Positions 18,406 through 22,426 of a stretch of DNA of 64,000 bases are shown one piece after another. A program made the position numbers and the translations under genes. Within the stretch, counting starts at the first letter, position 1. The number at the start of each line of letters is the position of its first letter. The DNA is from Ruania albidiflava DSM 18029 (lineage in GTDB: Bacteria > Actinomycetota > Actinomycetes > Actinomycetales > Beutenbergiaceae): the NCBI RefSeq assembly GCF_000421225.1, contig NZ_ATWL01000002.1, positions 186,001 to 250,000 on the forward strand, given 5' to 3'. The notes below the pieces were generated by a model, which was not told the origin of the DNA, did no database searches, and was given only the letters and a program-made list of their open reading frames with translations.

Positions 18406-18666
18406 CGCGCCTGTTCGACGCGCTGGCGACGTTGCACGAGCGGCACCCGGGCATCGACATCAGCCTGCGCGAGGGGATCTCGGCCGAGATCGTCGAGCAG
18501 GTGCGCCGCGGCGTGGCAGACCTGGCGGTCGCGCTGGCCCGACGCCGTCACGGTGCCGGTCGAGGCCGATCAGGCCCGGTCCCGGCTCGGTGTGCTCTGG
18601 CGGGACCGGCCGAACCACACGGTCCGGGCCCTGCTGCGCGAGCTCACCAGCAGTGCTCAGATGTAG
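18402..18666 (+). pseudogene. Remnant of a LysR-type transcriptional regulator (effector domain)
   Basis: The plus strand encodes LFDALATLHERHPGIDISLR followed by EGISAEIVEQVRRGVADLAVA, the start of a LysR effector-binding domain. After about residue 46 the homology jumps to a different frame at 18538, continuing as VPVEADQARSRLGVLWRDRP to a TAG at 18664, which resembles a LysR C-terminus. The helix-turn-helix is missing and the middle of the effector domain is deleted with a frame change. The last ten bases overlap cysE. This 420-base stretch (18234-18656) has no intact gene. Confidence 0.65.
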
Positions 18667-19235
18667 AGCGCCGGGTCCTCCAGGTCACCCTTCTCCCGCG
18701 CCGGCACGTGCCGCGGCCGGCCGGGGACGCCTACCACCACGGCGCCGTCCGGCACGTCCTTGACCACCACCGCGTTCGCACCGATCTGCACGTCCGAGCC
18801 GATGGTGATCGGCCCGAGCACCTTCGCGCCCGCGCCGATCACCACCCGGTCGCCCACGGTGGGGTGCCGTTTGCCACGGCTCATCGAGCGCCCACCGAGC
18901 GTCGAGCCGTGGAACATCAGCACGTCGTCACCCACCTCGGCAGTCTCACCGATCACCACCCCCATGCCGTGGTCGACGAAGAACCGCCGACCGAGCACCG
19001 CACCGGGATGGATCTCCACCCCGGTGACGGCGCGGGCCAGCTGGGACAGCACCCGGGCAGGCAGCCGCAGCAACGGCAGGTGCCACATGTGGTGCGCCAC
19101 CCGGTACAGCCACAGCGCGTGCACGCCCGGGTAGGTCAGCGCCACCTCGACGGCGGTGCGCGCGGCCGGGTCACGACGGCGCGCCGTGGCCAGGTCTTCG
19201 GCGATCAGGTCTTTCAGCGGTAGGCGGGGGGACAC
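18657..19235 (-). CDS. cysE: Serine O-acetyltransferase
   Basis: CysE makes O-acetyl-L-serine from serine and acetyl-CoA, the carbon skeleton for cysteine. The 192 residues (short type, as in actinobacteria and Gram-positives) have an N-terminal helical part and a C-terminal left-handed beta helix with hexapeptide repeats: [30 protein letters not shown] holds the catalytic Asp-His, and [21 protein letters not shown] follows. The GTG at 19235 is preceded by GAGGAG. It lies 13 bases after cysK and is its operon partner, so both are controlled by the Cys-codon leader upstream of cysK. Confidence 0.95.
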
Positions 19236-19248
19236 GTGCTCCTCGGCC

Positions 19249-20184
19249 TCACTCGGCCAGGTCGGCGAACAGCACGGTGGACAGGTAGCGCTCCCCGAAG
19301 TCCGGTACCACCGCGACGATCGTCTTGCCGGCGTTCTCCGGACGCTTCGCGACGTCCACCGCCGCCTTCAGCGCGGCACCGGAGGAGATGCCCACGAGCA
19401 GACCCTCCTCCCGGGCGGAGCGGCGGGAGGTCTCGATCGCGTCCTCGCCGCTGACGGTGATCACCTCGTCGTAGATGCTGGTGTCCAGGATCTTCGGCAC
19501 GAAGTTCGCGCCCAGGCCCTGGATCTTGTGCGGTCCGGCCTGACCCCCGGAGAGCACGGGGGACTCCGCCGGCTCCACAGCGATGATCTGCACCTCGGGC
19601 TTGCGCTCCTTGAGCAGCCCGCCCGCACCGGTGATCGTGCCGCCGGTGCCCACGCCGGAGACGAGGATGTCCACGCCACCGTCGGTGTCCGCCCAGATCT
19701 CCTCGCCGGTGGTGCGGCGGTGGATGTCCACGTTCGCCTGGTTCTCGAACTGGCGGGCCAGGATCGCTCCGGGCCGCTCGGCGGCGATCTGCTCGGCCTT
19801 CTCCACCGCGCCCTTCATCCCGCCGGAACCGGGGGTGAGGATGAGCTCGGCACCGTAGGCGCGCAGCAGCATCTTGCGCTCGTTCGACATCGTCTCCGGC
19901 ATGGCCAGCACCACCTGGTAGCCGCGGGCGGCGCCGACGAACGCCAGTGCGATACCGGTGTTGCCGCTGGTCGCCTCCACGATCGTGCCGCCCGGGGGCA
20001 GGGCGCCGGCCGCCTCGGCGGCGTCGATGATGGCCACGCCGATGCGGTCCTTGACGCTGTTGGCGGGGTTGTAGAACTCGAGCTTGGCGAGCACAGTGGC
20101 GCCCGCCCCCTCGGTGAGGGAGTTGATCCGCACCAGCGGGGTGTTGCCGATCAGGGCGGTGGCGTTGTCGTAGATGCGTGCCAT
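19249..20184 (-). CDS. cysK: Cysteine synthase A (O-acetylserine sulfhydrylase)
   Basis: A 311-residue PLP enzyme that replaces the acetyl group of O-acetylserine with sulfide to form cysteine. The PLP lysine is Lys45 in [12 protein letters not shown], the substrate loop is [14 protein letters not shown], and [12 protein letters not shown] binds the PLP phosphate. It heads a cysK-cysE operon. The ATG at 20184 has GGAAGGAA upstream. The 340-base upstream region (20185-20524) holds no other protein gene but carries a short leader ORF with three Cys codons and competing hairpins, implying control by cysteine supply. Confidence 0.96.
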
Positions 20185-20334
20185 GAGTGAGGGGTTCCTT
20201 CCATCGTGTGATCGTGCTGGTCGAGTGCCGGCAGGCAGCGTGGCGCCGCAGGCGGCAGCGGCCAGGTGCAGGGGACCAGCGGCCGTGGAGCCTCAGCTGC
20301 TCCGGCACGTCCGGCCCGCTCGCACCTGCGGGGC

Positions 20335-20364
20335 GAGCGCGGGGGCTCGCTGGCGCCCGCGCTC
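20335..20364 (-). promoter_or_regulatory. Attenuator hairpin with alternative partner before cysK
   Basis: On the minus strand GAGCGCGGG (20364-20356) pairs perfectly with CCCGCGCTC (20343-20335), starting at the leader stop codon. The second arm, extended to CTCGC, can instead pair with GCGAGCGGG at 20323-20315, with a two-base bulge. These two stems exclude each other, the layout of a translation-controlled attenuator. No T run follows, so the terminating form may need Rho. Confidence 0.6.
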
Positions 20365-20417
20365 TACAGACAGCAGCAGCCGGAGAGCACGCTCGACACG
20401 AGGCGCCGGTGCGACAT
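20364..20417 (-). CDS. Cysteine-codon leader peptide of the cysK-cysE operon
   Basis: A 17-residue ORF, MSHRRLVSSVLSGCCCL, whose three consecutive Cys codons (20378-20370) lie just before the stop. The ATG at 20417 has a textbook GGAGG site six bases upstream. The stop codon is the first base pair of a strong hairpin. Its position, Cys run, ribosome site and structure strongly suggest that ribosome stalling at low Cys-tRNA sets expression of cysK-cysE. Poly-Cys leader peptides acting on sulfur genes are known in mycobacteria; there they are mostly leaderless, whereas this one has a ribosome site. No database comparison was possible. Confidence 0.72.
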   Translation of the reverse strand: MSHRRLVSSVLSGCCCL

Positions 20418-20524
20418 CCGAATCCTCCAATTGGTTGAAGGTGAGAGTGATTCGGTGCCTATCCTCTCACCATTCGCCCCTTCGGGACAGGTCGGTGTCC
20501 GGAGGACGAGAAATACGCGGGTAC

Positions 20525-21526
20525 TCAGGTCGTGGCGCCGCCCCGGCTGCGGGCTGCCATGGTGTTCAGCAGCGCTGCCGCCCGGGTGGCGTCGTCAGTC
20601 GTGACCACGAACGTGCGCTCACCGGTGGCTTGCACCTGCACTGCCTCGCCGCGGCGCAGCACCAGGCCGCTGGTGCCGTCCACCCGGGAGCGCAGGCCCC
20701 AGCCACCGAACTCGGTGAACGGGTGCACGGTGACCACGTCGGCACGCAGCGTCTCCTCGGCGCGGACGGTCAGCCGGGGCCAGCCGAGCAGGGCGCGGGC
20801 ATGCAGACCGGTGGCGTCGATCTGTAGCGTCCAGTGCAGGTTCGCCAGCAGCGGCAGCGCCGGAAGGAGCAGCACCGCTAGCAGCCACCACTGCGCGCTC
20901 AGGGAGGTGATCGCCACGGCTGCGGCGAGCCAGAGTGCGATGCCGGCCCACCAGAACACCTCGCCGCGCACTGTGCACCGGGTGAGCCACATGGTCCTGG
21001 CCTCGGCCGGTAGGTCCAGCCGGGCAGCGTCGGCCGGTACCGGGTCCGCTGCCGGCAGGTGCGGGTCGGCACCGGCCAGCAGACCAGCGGCGACCCCCAG
21101 CAGCACGGCCACCAGCAGCCCCACCACGAGCGGTGTGGCCGAGGGGGTCACAGCAGCAGCATCCGGTGCGTCCAGCTGCACCCAGGCCGAGCCGAGCAGC
21201 ACCGCCGCGTAGGTCGCTCCCAGCAGCACAGCACTACCGACGAGTACGCGGCGGGCGCCCTCGGTGCGGCCGGCGGCCAGCACCAGGGTGGTGAACAGCA
21301 GCCAGGTGGTGGCCGCCAGCGCCACGACCACGGTGACCAGCTCGGTGAACGGGCCGGTGCGAGCCGGACCGTGCAGACTCCAGTGCAGCACCGCCGGGTC
21401 GGGCAGGCGCGGCAACCAGGTGGTCGTGAGCAGCGCTGCCCCGGCGACCAGCAGCGCGGGGAGCAGTACACCAAGGACGACGCTGCGGGCCCGGTGCGGG
21501 TGGGTGGGGGCCGGGTGAGGACTCAT
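20525..21526 (-). CDS. DUF1648-type membrane protein
   Basis: A 333-residue integral membrane protein with hydrophobic segments near 15-35, 60-83, 92-113, 131-153, 195-215 and 218-235 and a C-terminal 100-residue soluble part that looks like a PH-like beta domain. The opening WLPRLPDPAVLHWSLHGPA is the DUF1648 signature found in SdpI-related proteins. Its start overlaps the end of the GntR gene upstream (ATGA), so the two are co-transcribed, a pairing common in Gram-positives where the regulator controls a membrane protein in response to cell-envelope stress. The exact role is unknown. Confidence 0.78.
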   Translation of the reverse strand: MSPHPAPTHPHRARSVVLGVLLPALLVAGAALLTTTWLPRLPDPAVLHWSLHGPARTGPFTELVTVVVALAATTWLLFTTLVLAAGRTEGARRVLVGSAVLLGATYAAVLLGSAWVQLDAPDAAAVTPSATPLVVGLLVAVLLGVAAGLLAGADPHLPAADPVPADAARLDLPAEARTMWLTRCTVRGEVFWWAGIALWLAAAVAITSLSAQWWLLAVLLLPALPLLANLHWTLQIDATGLHARALLGWPRLTVRAEETLRADVVTVHPFTEFGGWGLRSRVDGTSGLVLRRGEAVQVQATGERTFVVTTDDATRAAALLNTMAARSRGGATT

Positions 21527-22168: not shown

Positions 22169-22426
22169 ATGAAGAAGGACATCCACCCGGAGTACAAGCC
22201 GGTCGTCTTCCGGGACATCTCCGCGAACTTCGCCATCCTGACCCGCTCCACCGCCACCTCGGAGACCACCGTGGAGTGGGAGGACGGCAACACCTACCCG
22301 GTCGTGGACGTGGACATCTCTTCCGCTTCGCACCCGTTCTACACCGGCAAGCAGAAGATCCTGGACACCGCCGGGCGGGTGGAGAAGTTCCGCCAGCGCT
22401 ACGCCAAGGCTGGCGCCAAGGCCTGA
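22169..22426 (+). CDS. rpmE2: 50S ribosomal protein L31 type B (zinc-free)
   Basis: An 85-residue L31 paralogue starting [16 protein letters not shown] and containing [24 protein letters not shown]. It has no cysteine, so it is the zinc-independent form that can replace zinc-binding L31 during zinc shortage. The ATG has AGGAAG upstream. It is followed 101 bases later by a likewise Cys-free L32, a pairing often under Zur control. A 15-base stretch at 22030-22044 resembles a Zur box at about 10 positions only, too weak to call. Confidence 0.95.

Follow-up and report, generated by a model that had tools for sequence, protein, structure and literature searches.

The stretch of DNA analysed here (the window) comprises 64 kb of the genome of Ruania albidiflava DSM 18029 (contig NZ_ATWL01000002.1, positions 186,001 to 250,000), and on its minus strand a short open reading frame (ORF) ending in three cysteine codons lies upstream of the cysteine biosynthesis genes cysK and cysE. 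The product of cysK (19249–20184), cysteine synthase A, matches TIGR01139 with 449.9 bits. That of cysE (18657–19235), which follows after a gap of 13 bases, is serine O-acetyltransferase and matches TIGR01172 with 234.2 bits and NF041874 with 235.1 bits. All three scores are above cut-off, confirming the claim of the initial annotation that the leader precedes the biosynthetic pair itself. Here we show that the ORF and a hairpin anchored at its stop codon form an element conserved in front of cysK in part of the order, and we argue from its sequence that it is very probably a cysteine-sensing attenuator of some kind that acts in cis upstream of cysK-cysE.

The leader ORF and the stop-codon hairpin

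The leader ORF (20364–20417) has 17 codons, MSHRRLVSSVLSGCCCL-TAG. A GGAGG Shine-Dalgarno sequence (20424–20428) is found six bases ahead of its ATG (20417–20415), and the ORF ends Cys-Cys-Cys-Leu-stop: the Cys codons (20370–20378) are TGC at 20378–20376, TGC at 20375–20373 and TGT at 20372–20370, and are followed by CTG (20369–20367) and TAG (20366–20364). These features bear out what the initial annotation had noted. On both strands of the 64 kb, the leader is the sole ORF of 6–60 codons with at least three Cys among its last six residues, its own internal starts aside. No profile match was obtained when a 24-residue in-frame stretch was compared with the leader families of NCBIfam and Pfam, a search that short peptides can escape.

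A stem, P1, is formed by a 5′ arm, GAGCGCGGG (20356–20364), and a 3′ arm, CCCGCGCTC (20335–20343), which make nine perfect pairs. Five bases separate the last Cys codon from the first of these pairs. The 9-bp stem had been proposed before and is upheld, with the small correction that the first of its bases is the third of the stop codon. For the 33-base stretch with all of P1 but the final base of the 3′ arm, the folding energy is −18.7 kcal/mol (z −2.85), and 0 of 200 shuffles equalled this value. GCCCC (20334–20330) comes directly after the 3′ arm, and an untranslated spacer (20200–20334) extends from P1 to the ribosome site of cysK.

On its upstream side the leader is bordered by an uncharacterised gene (20525–21526), which gave a match to DUF1648 alone, under the cut-off. 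A possible −10 box, TAGGCA (20456–20461, minus strand), was read by eye; it was missed by a consensus scan, and both leader-bearing congeners have TAGGAT at its position. Given this putative box, the 5′ untranslated region of the leader RNA would be ~30 bases long.

Conservation and distribution of the element

We compared 88 regions upstream of cysK, consisting of 80 named loci fetched via CysK and 8 genomes of the genus, the window included. Within 400 bases, an ORF with a ribosome site and at least two Cys among its last six residues was found in 33 of the 88 regions, and in 3 of 1341 control windows overall (0/88 antisense, 2/388 and 0/388 further upstream, 1/477 downstream). Looser ORF rules gave 40 loci and, after L086 (far stop) and L088 (weak) had been set aside by eye and one of the two ORFs of L081 kept, 38 ORF-found leaders; those from named loci belong mainly to Cellulomonas, Actinotalea, Demequina, Isoptericola, Georgenia, Sanguibacter, Cellulosimicrobium and Oerskovia. 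In 38/38 the final Cys codon stands two codons ahead of the stop and has C directly after it; the codon itself is TGT in 37/38, and TGT is rare in the window, where it makes up 8 of the 76 Cys codons of gene-like frames. Of these leaders, 33 end with TAG and 5 with TGA.

Of 396 genomes sampled from the order, 70 contain a single match each to a covariance model of the element (12 of 109 genera, five family codes; E up to 0.001). A class-wide sample yielded matches in 2 of 394 genomes, both within the same order. Every one of the 67 matches outside the genus precedes cysK, 66 as found by script and L105, which has a variant motif, by eye. At least one Cys is present among the last eight leader residues in all 67 and at least three in 53, and 66 have a four- or five-base Shine-Dalgarno match (five-base in 33), the start having been chosen by the script partly for that match. 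In a sample of the family (24 genomes), G011 and G013 also carry the element before cysK, at weaker scores. Since there is one model match per genome, before cysK, the element seems to serve a single target and not a regulon; no search for stemless Cys leaders was made in front of other genes.

The genome of R. albidiflava itself has one credible copy. The model gave five weaker matches in it (29.7 bits, E 0.02, and lower); the four that were inspected (L091, L092, L093 and L095) do not show a Cys leader whose stop is joined to a stem, and L091, L092 and L093 fall inside long open frames. The sequence TGTCNNTAGAGCG has one perfect occurrence in the genome and 14 with a single mismatch. Among the sites inspected, the perfect one and 5 of the 14, there was no other leader-like site with a stem, L174 having a Cys-rich frame and no stop there. 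Two leaderless congeners also gave matches, L100 and L101, which were judged to be due to chance.

A set of 94 stem-bearing elements was assembled from 66 of the 67 model matches (L105 was missed by the cysK pattern of the script) and 28 of the 38 ORF-found leaders, leaving out L021, L022, L030, L037, L040 and L081, which have no TAGAGCG-type stem, and the duplicates L028, L029, L033 and L051. TGTC is present at the last Cys codon (window 20369–20372) in 94/94, most of them found by a model that favours TGTC; 5 of the 67 model matches are identical over 60 bases to an ORF-found element. The 3′ arms of L038, L155 and L163 in this set are probably misplaced. Each base of the GCCCC after P1 is common to 74–80 of the 94.

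The initial annotation had put forward an alignment of related Micrococcales as a check. The comparison bore out the conserved Cys run, the ribosome site and compensatory changes in P1, as described below; the second stem that had been expected was not conserved, and within the genus the element is patchy (3 of 8 genomes). The other five genomes of the genus (L005–L009) have no Cys leader upstream of cysK. In L007, an L31-like ribosomal protein frame (at 22169–22426 in the window, named by eye) starts ~400 bases before cysK on the opposite strand, and the region between the two has for this reason probably been replaced. At L010 (Occultella glacieicola), TTCAACCAATCGG lies ~100 bases before cysK and resembles TTCAACCAATTGGAG of the 5′ untranslated region in the window, with no leader ORF after it, as if the leader had been lost.

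Covariation of P1

The unbiased test of the stem was made on the 38 ORF-picked leaders, by comparing the best partner of nine bases, taken from a given offset, in the 95-base downstream stretch with that in shuffles. With the arm at +2, the third base of the stop codon, p<0.01 was reached in 18/38 and p<0.05 in 23/38. Eleven offsets farther away (−24 to −3 and +5 to +30, counted from the first base of the stop codon) gave p<0.01 in 0/38 and p<0.05 in 0–3, and the overlapping offsets 0, +1 and +3 gave p<0.01 in 2, 1 and 14 of 38. The nine bases that begin with TGTC (offset −6) have no downstream partner beyond chance (0/38 at p<0.01, median p 0.70).

Compensatory changes were counted in an alignment (A1) of 26 of the 38 leaders. 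L014, L021, L022, L030, L037, L038, L040, L041, L046, L048, L052 and L081 were left out for having no clear stem, a misplaced 3′ arm or, in L041, a long loop. In A1, 92.7% of the P1 cells are paired, a level that 0 of 500 shuffles reached, and sliding the partner lowers the pairing to 31–44%. Two-sided changes occur at 5 of the 10 P1 pairs, matched by 6 of 500 shuffles. On a CysK tree of the 94 rows, built by a quick method, pair 7 (T-A, C-G, G-C) changed at least seven times, each time by a net two-sided swap; because the 3′ arms of these rows were placed by complementarity to the 5′ arm, pair counts on the 94 rows lean towards the stem. P1 is the single structure common to all three groups that were aligned. 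Its outer pairs vary little, and its loop has 7–61 bases between ten-base arms (three longer loops, in which the 3′ arm is probably misplaced, were left out). Over the element, no match to an Rfam 15 family was found, either at gathering score in the window or, with E values of up to 1 allowed, in six cysK loci.

In Isoptericola-type loci (L134, L143, L149, L154, L155, L163 and similar ones) the outer stem is shorter, GAGCGTC/GACGCTC with 7 bp, and the P1 loop holds a conserved arrangement like CACGCCTGACC...GGCGACCG together with further helices. Loci that we grouped as Demequina-type (for instance L110–L113, L115, L122, L131 and L138) have a second small hairpin just after P1, GGCATCG...CGATGC with variants such as GGTATCG...CGATAC, followed by a recurrent CGTT; it is found in many of the 34 rows and was not seen in the other two aligned groups. 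Apart from these groups, the Cys leaders of L021, L022, L037 and L040 (Cellulosimicrobium) and L081 (Propionibacterium) end TGTCGC-TGA and have no TAGAGCG stem. Their last Cys codon could form a small hairpin, GTCG-CTGA-CGAC, or TGTCG...CGACA in L081, which is possibly a second design of the same switch.

Proposed mechanism

The element shares two features with ribosome-mediated amino-acid attenuators in the broad sense, namely a Cys cluster near the end of a leader that precedes a matching biosynthetic gene and a conserved structure beside the regulatory codons. From these features we infer how it may respond to cysteine, with what polarity and through what outlet. Ribosomes would load at the GGAGG site and would then have to decode the terminal Cys cluster. 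While a ribosome awaits Cys-tRNA, at the last Cys codon or earlier, P1 would stay closed; it would be opened once the ribosome occupies the stop codon. As its first pair involves the final base of the stop codon, five bases past the last Cys codon, P1 could gauge the position of the ribosome. A ribosome whose A site holds the last Cys codon would just reach P1, and once it stood on the stop codon, most of P1 would have been opened. On this geometry and the known size of the footprint, we somewhat favour a polarity in which the waiting ribosome leaves P1 closed or barely touched and the ribosome at the stop opens it. The earlier proposal that a ribosome paused at 20378–20370 would cover the 5′ arm is doubtful, for five bases remain before the first pair and the geometry would reverse the polarity.

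When cysteine is ample, transcription would end prematurely in the untranslated, C-rich spacer, plausibly by the action of Rho, and stalled ribosomes would relieve this premature termination. The outlet is most likely transcriptional, since our comparison turned up neither a conserved competing hairpin nor a U-tract, nor masking of the cysK ribosome site as a general feature. Spacer composition was calculated for those of at least 50 bases, 87 of the 94, in which C makes up 0.459 and G 0.255; the mean of C minus G is +0.20, compared with +0.05 in 54 leaderless cysK regions, and exceeds 0.10 in 96.6% of the 87 spacers versus 25.9% of the leaderless regions. The genome of R. albidiflava carries rho (631.9 bits). 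A C-rich, G-poor spacer is as expected for Rho loading, and we propose the Rho step tentatively, at somewhat short of an even chance.

Taken as a whole, the statement that this is a cis-acting, cysteine-responsive, ribosome-mediated attenuator with the polarity and the transcriptional outlet given above seems to us, on the sequences compared, to have about an even chance of being right. It could take the form of an attenuator with one hairpin and no competing structure, in which the state of P1 would report the decoding of the last Cys codon and be passed on to Rho or to polymerase pausing, with TGTC and GAGCG as a pause or factor site; P1 would then start exactly at the leading edge of the ribosome waiting at the last Cys codon. 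We regard this form as a reasonable candidate, though with somewhat less than even chances.

Several observations weigh against the reading as proposed. Pairing alone leaves the invariant TGTC and GAGCG/CGCTC unexplained. By the simple offset test, a stem at p<0.05 is missing from 15 of the 38 leaders picked by their ORF, among them the Cellulosimicrobium loci L021, L022, L037 and L040, Oerskovia flava L030 and Propionibacterium L081. The leader is present in just 3 of 8 genomes of the genus, the other five having different upstream sequence and no such ORF. In L004, the cysK ribosome site is less open than in shuffles (0.28 versus 0.61, and 0.38 with a modelled stall). As for the spacer, that of the window itself has just a weak excess of C (C 0.407, G 0.348; C minus G only +0.06). 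The leaderless near relatives L010, L011 and L020 reach 0.13 to 0.21, with L056 at −0.21, so that C-richness may partly follow taxon; the five leaderless congeners lie at 0.01 to 0.11. Moreover, the stretch around the leader start is as C-rich as the spacer (bin −60, +0.21), and the rows are related, falling into 9 sequence clusters of which one holds 82 of the 94 elements; 7 of the 9 clusters are above +0.10. A ribosome stalled ahead of the spacer would also have no obvious means of keeping Rho away.

Alternative explanations

The initial annotation had proposed two competing hairpins, in which a ribosome at the Cys codons would cover the 5′ arm and the 3′ arm would pair with GCGAGCGGG (20315–20323, minus strand) instead. 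The match does exist in the window: GCGAGCGGG is complementary to the 3′ arm over 7 contiguous bp (CGCTCGC 20339–20333 with GCGAGCG 20323–20317), with a bulge beyond, and the minimum free energy fold of the 42-base stretch alone uses this alternative stem. However, that stretch is at the level of shuffles (z −0.30; 74 of 200 as good), the alternative stem is missing from both leader-bearing congeners (L003, L004), and the P1 3′ arm of the 94 elements shows no excess complementarity over shuffles (mean z +0.29 downstream and +0.32 upstream). Downstream, 8.5% of the 94 fall below z −1.64, and the window itself is at −0.25. Not being conserved, GCGAGCGGG was judged to lie outside the element; we found no mutually exclusive second hairpin of the trp type, and we consider competing hairpins highly improbable. 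Nor was the other mark of the trp type, a terminator hairpin with a U-tract, found here, and this bears on the idea that P1 is itself the off-state, refolding after the ribosome leaves the stop and acting as an unusual, U-tract-free terminator or polymerase pause hairpin that stalling at the last Cys codon would open. That P1 is the sole structure shared by the three aligned groups, and that its outer pairs and the adjoining GCCCC vary little, would fit such a role; against it, the 8 bases past the stem have no T in 58 of the 94 elements and 0 or 1 T in 88, a scan of the window found no terminator-like site, and the length of the loop varies widely. A P1 off-state is in our judgement unlikely.

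Mycobacterial polycysteine leaders of the kind studied by Canestrari et al. reportedly work by masking a downstream ribosome site. Translational attenuation of this type, in which the leader region would mask the cysK ribosome site unless a ribosome stalls, has a precedent among cysteine leaders in the accessible passages of two papers (PMC13236596, PMC9031893), and of the three copies in the genus L004 alone has a partly closed site. Over the 94 elements, however, folding models give an openness of the cysK site of 0.521 versus 0.512 in shuffles, and modelling a stall shifts this value by a mean of +0.011 (above +0.2 in 2/94 and below −0.2 in 1/94). The leader stop, moreover, lies 89–293 bases upstream (median 150.5). 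With L004 as the exception in these models, masking strikes us as distinctly unlikely. RNA decay, in which the hairpin and a stalled ribosome would shield a cleavage site instead of affecting termination, would fit one conserved hairpin without a competing structure, and we rate its chances as very low. Two further ideas were considered. Read-through of the stop codon, with P1 as a SECIS-like hairpin, was set aside in view of the stop codons (TAG in 33 and TGA in 5 of the 38) and the freely varying loop lengths; a peptide acting in trans is unlikely, as the families share the Cys tail alone, judged by eye.

Relation to known cysteine leaders

Candidate Cys leader peptides in Actinobacteria were described by Seliverstov et al. 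(2005) for cys operons of Mycobacterium and P. acnes and for cbs of B. longum, with no conserved hairpin that could be a terminator, and Rho was suggested (PMC1262725, in the portions available). The cysK element resembles them in its Cys run near the stop, the lack of an obvious terminator and the suggestion of Rho; it differs in that theirs belong to other genes and taxa, 'cysK' appearing nowhere in the text as available (PMC1262725).

Canestrari et al. (2020) reported, according to the relevant passages of papers citing them (PMC13236596, PMC9031893, PMC9094748), that mycobacterial leaderless polycysteine ORFs act as attenuators, and Cys-tailed ORFs have been noted by ribosome profiling (PMC4633059, in part). 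The initial annotation had held that the mycobacterial ORFs are mostly leaderless, in agreement with what the accessible parts of PMC9031893 and PMC4633059 say. A general passage of PMC13236596 deals with masking of a downstream ribosome site. Like these ORFs, the cysK leader is a short Cys ORF before cysteine genes, and a cysteine-dependent speed of the ribosome has been proposed as the signal there, as far as these excerpts go. Unlike them, the cysK element has a strong ribosome site, one target and a covarying hairpin anchored at the stop codon, and its downstream ribosome site does not in general look masked. The GGAGG site, together with similar sites in the relatives, sets it apart from a leaderless start, the start of the RNA being a predicted one. 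A survey of Streptomyces lividans, in the part available, lists eight leader peptides, none of them assigned to cysteine (PMC8079986).

Further afield, the regulatory codons of trp/his-type attenuators likewise stand just before the stop, and a hairpin arm lies at the stop, so that pairing would depend on the position of the ribosome; unlike that type, the cysK element has neither a conserved competing hairpin nor a U-tract terminator. With the Rho-dependent leader of the tnaC type, which Seliverstov et al. cite (PMC1262725, in the portions available), it would share the exposure of downstream RNA upon release of the ribosome at the leader stop. It differs from the tnaC type in that the signal would be missing charged tRNA and not an arrest peptide, and the role of Rho is putative. 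No title or abstract opening describing this cysK element was found in the literature covered, most subscription journals lying outside that coverage. The cysK element shares the principle of the known actinobacterial cysteine attenuators and differs from them by its ribosome site, its hairpin and its target.

We would like to point out that published descriptions of candidate cysteine leaders in Actinobacteria go back to 2005, where no conserved terminator hairpin was described for them (PMC1262725, as far as the text was available), and that the cysK element adds to them a covarying hairpin anchored at the stop codon and tied to one gene across five family codes of one order. How leaders that have neither a terminator nor a competing hairpin may act thereby becomes directly testable in soil bacteria, and the cysK element offers a new RNA family for annotation and what would be a natural cysteine sensor.
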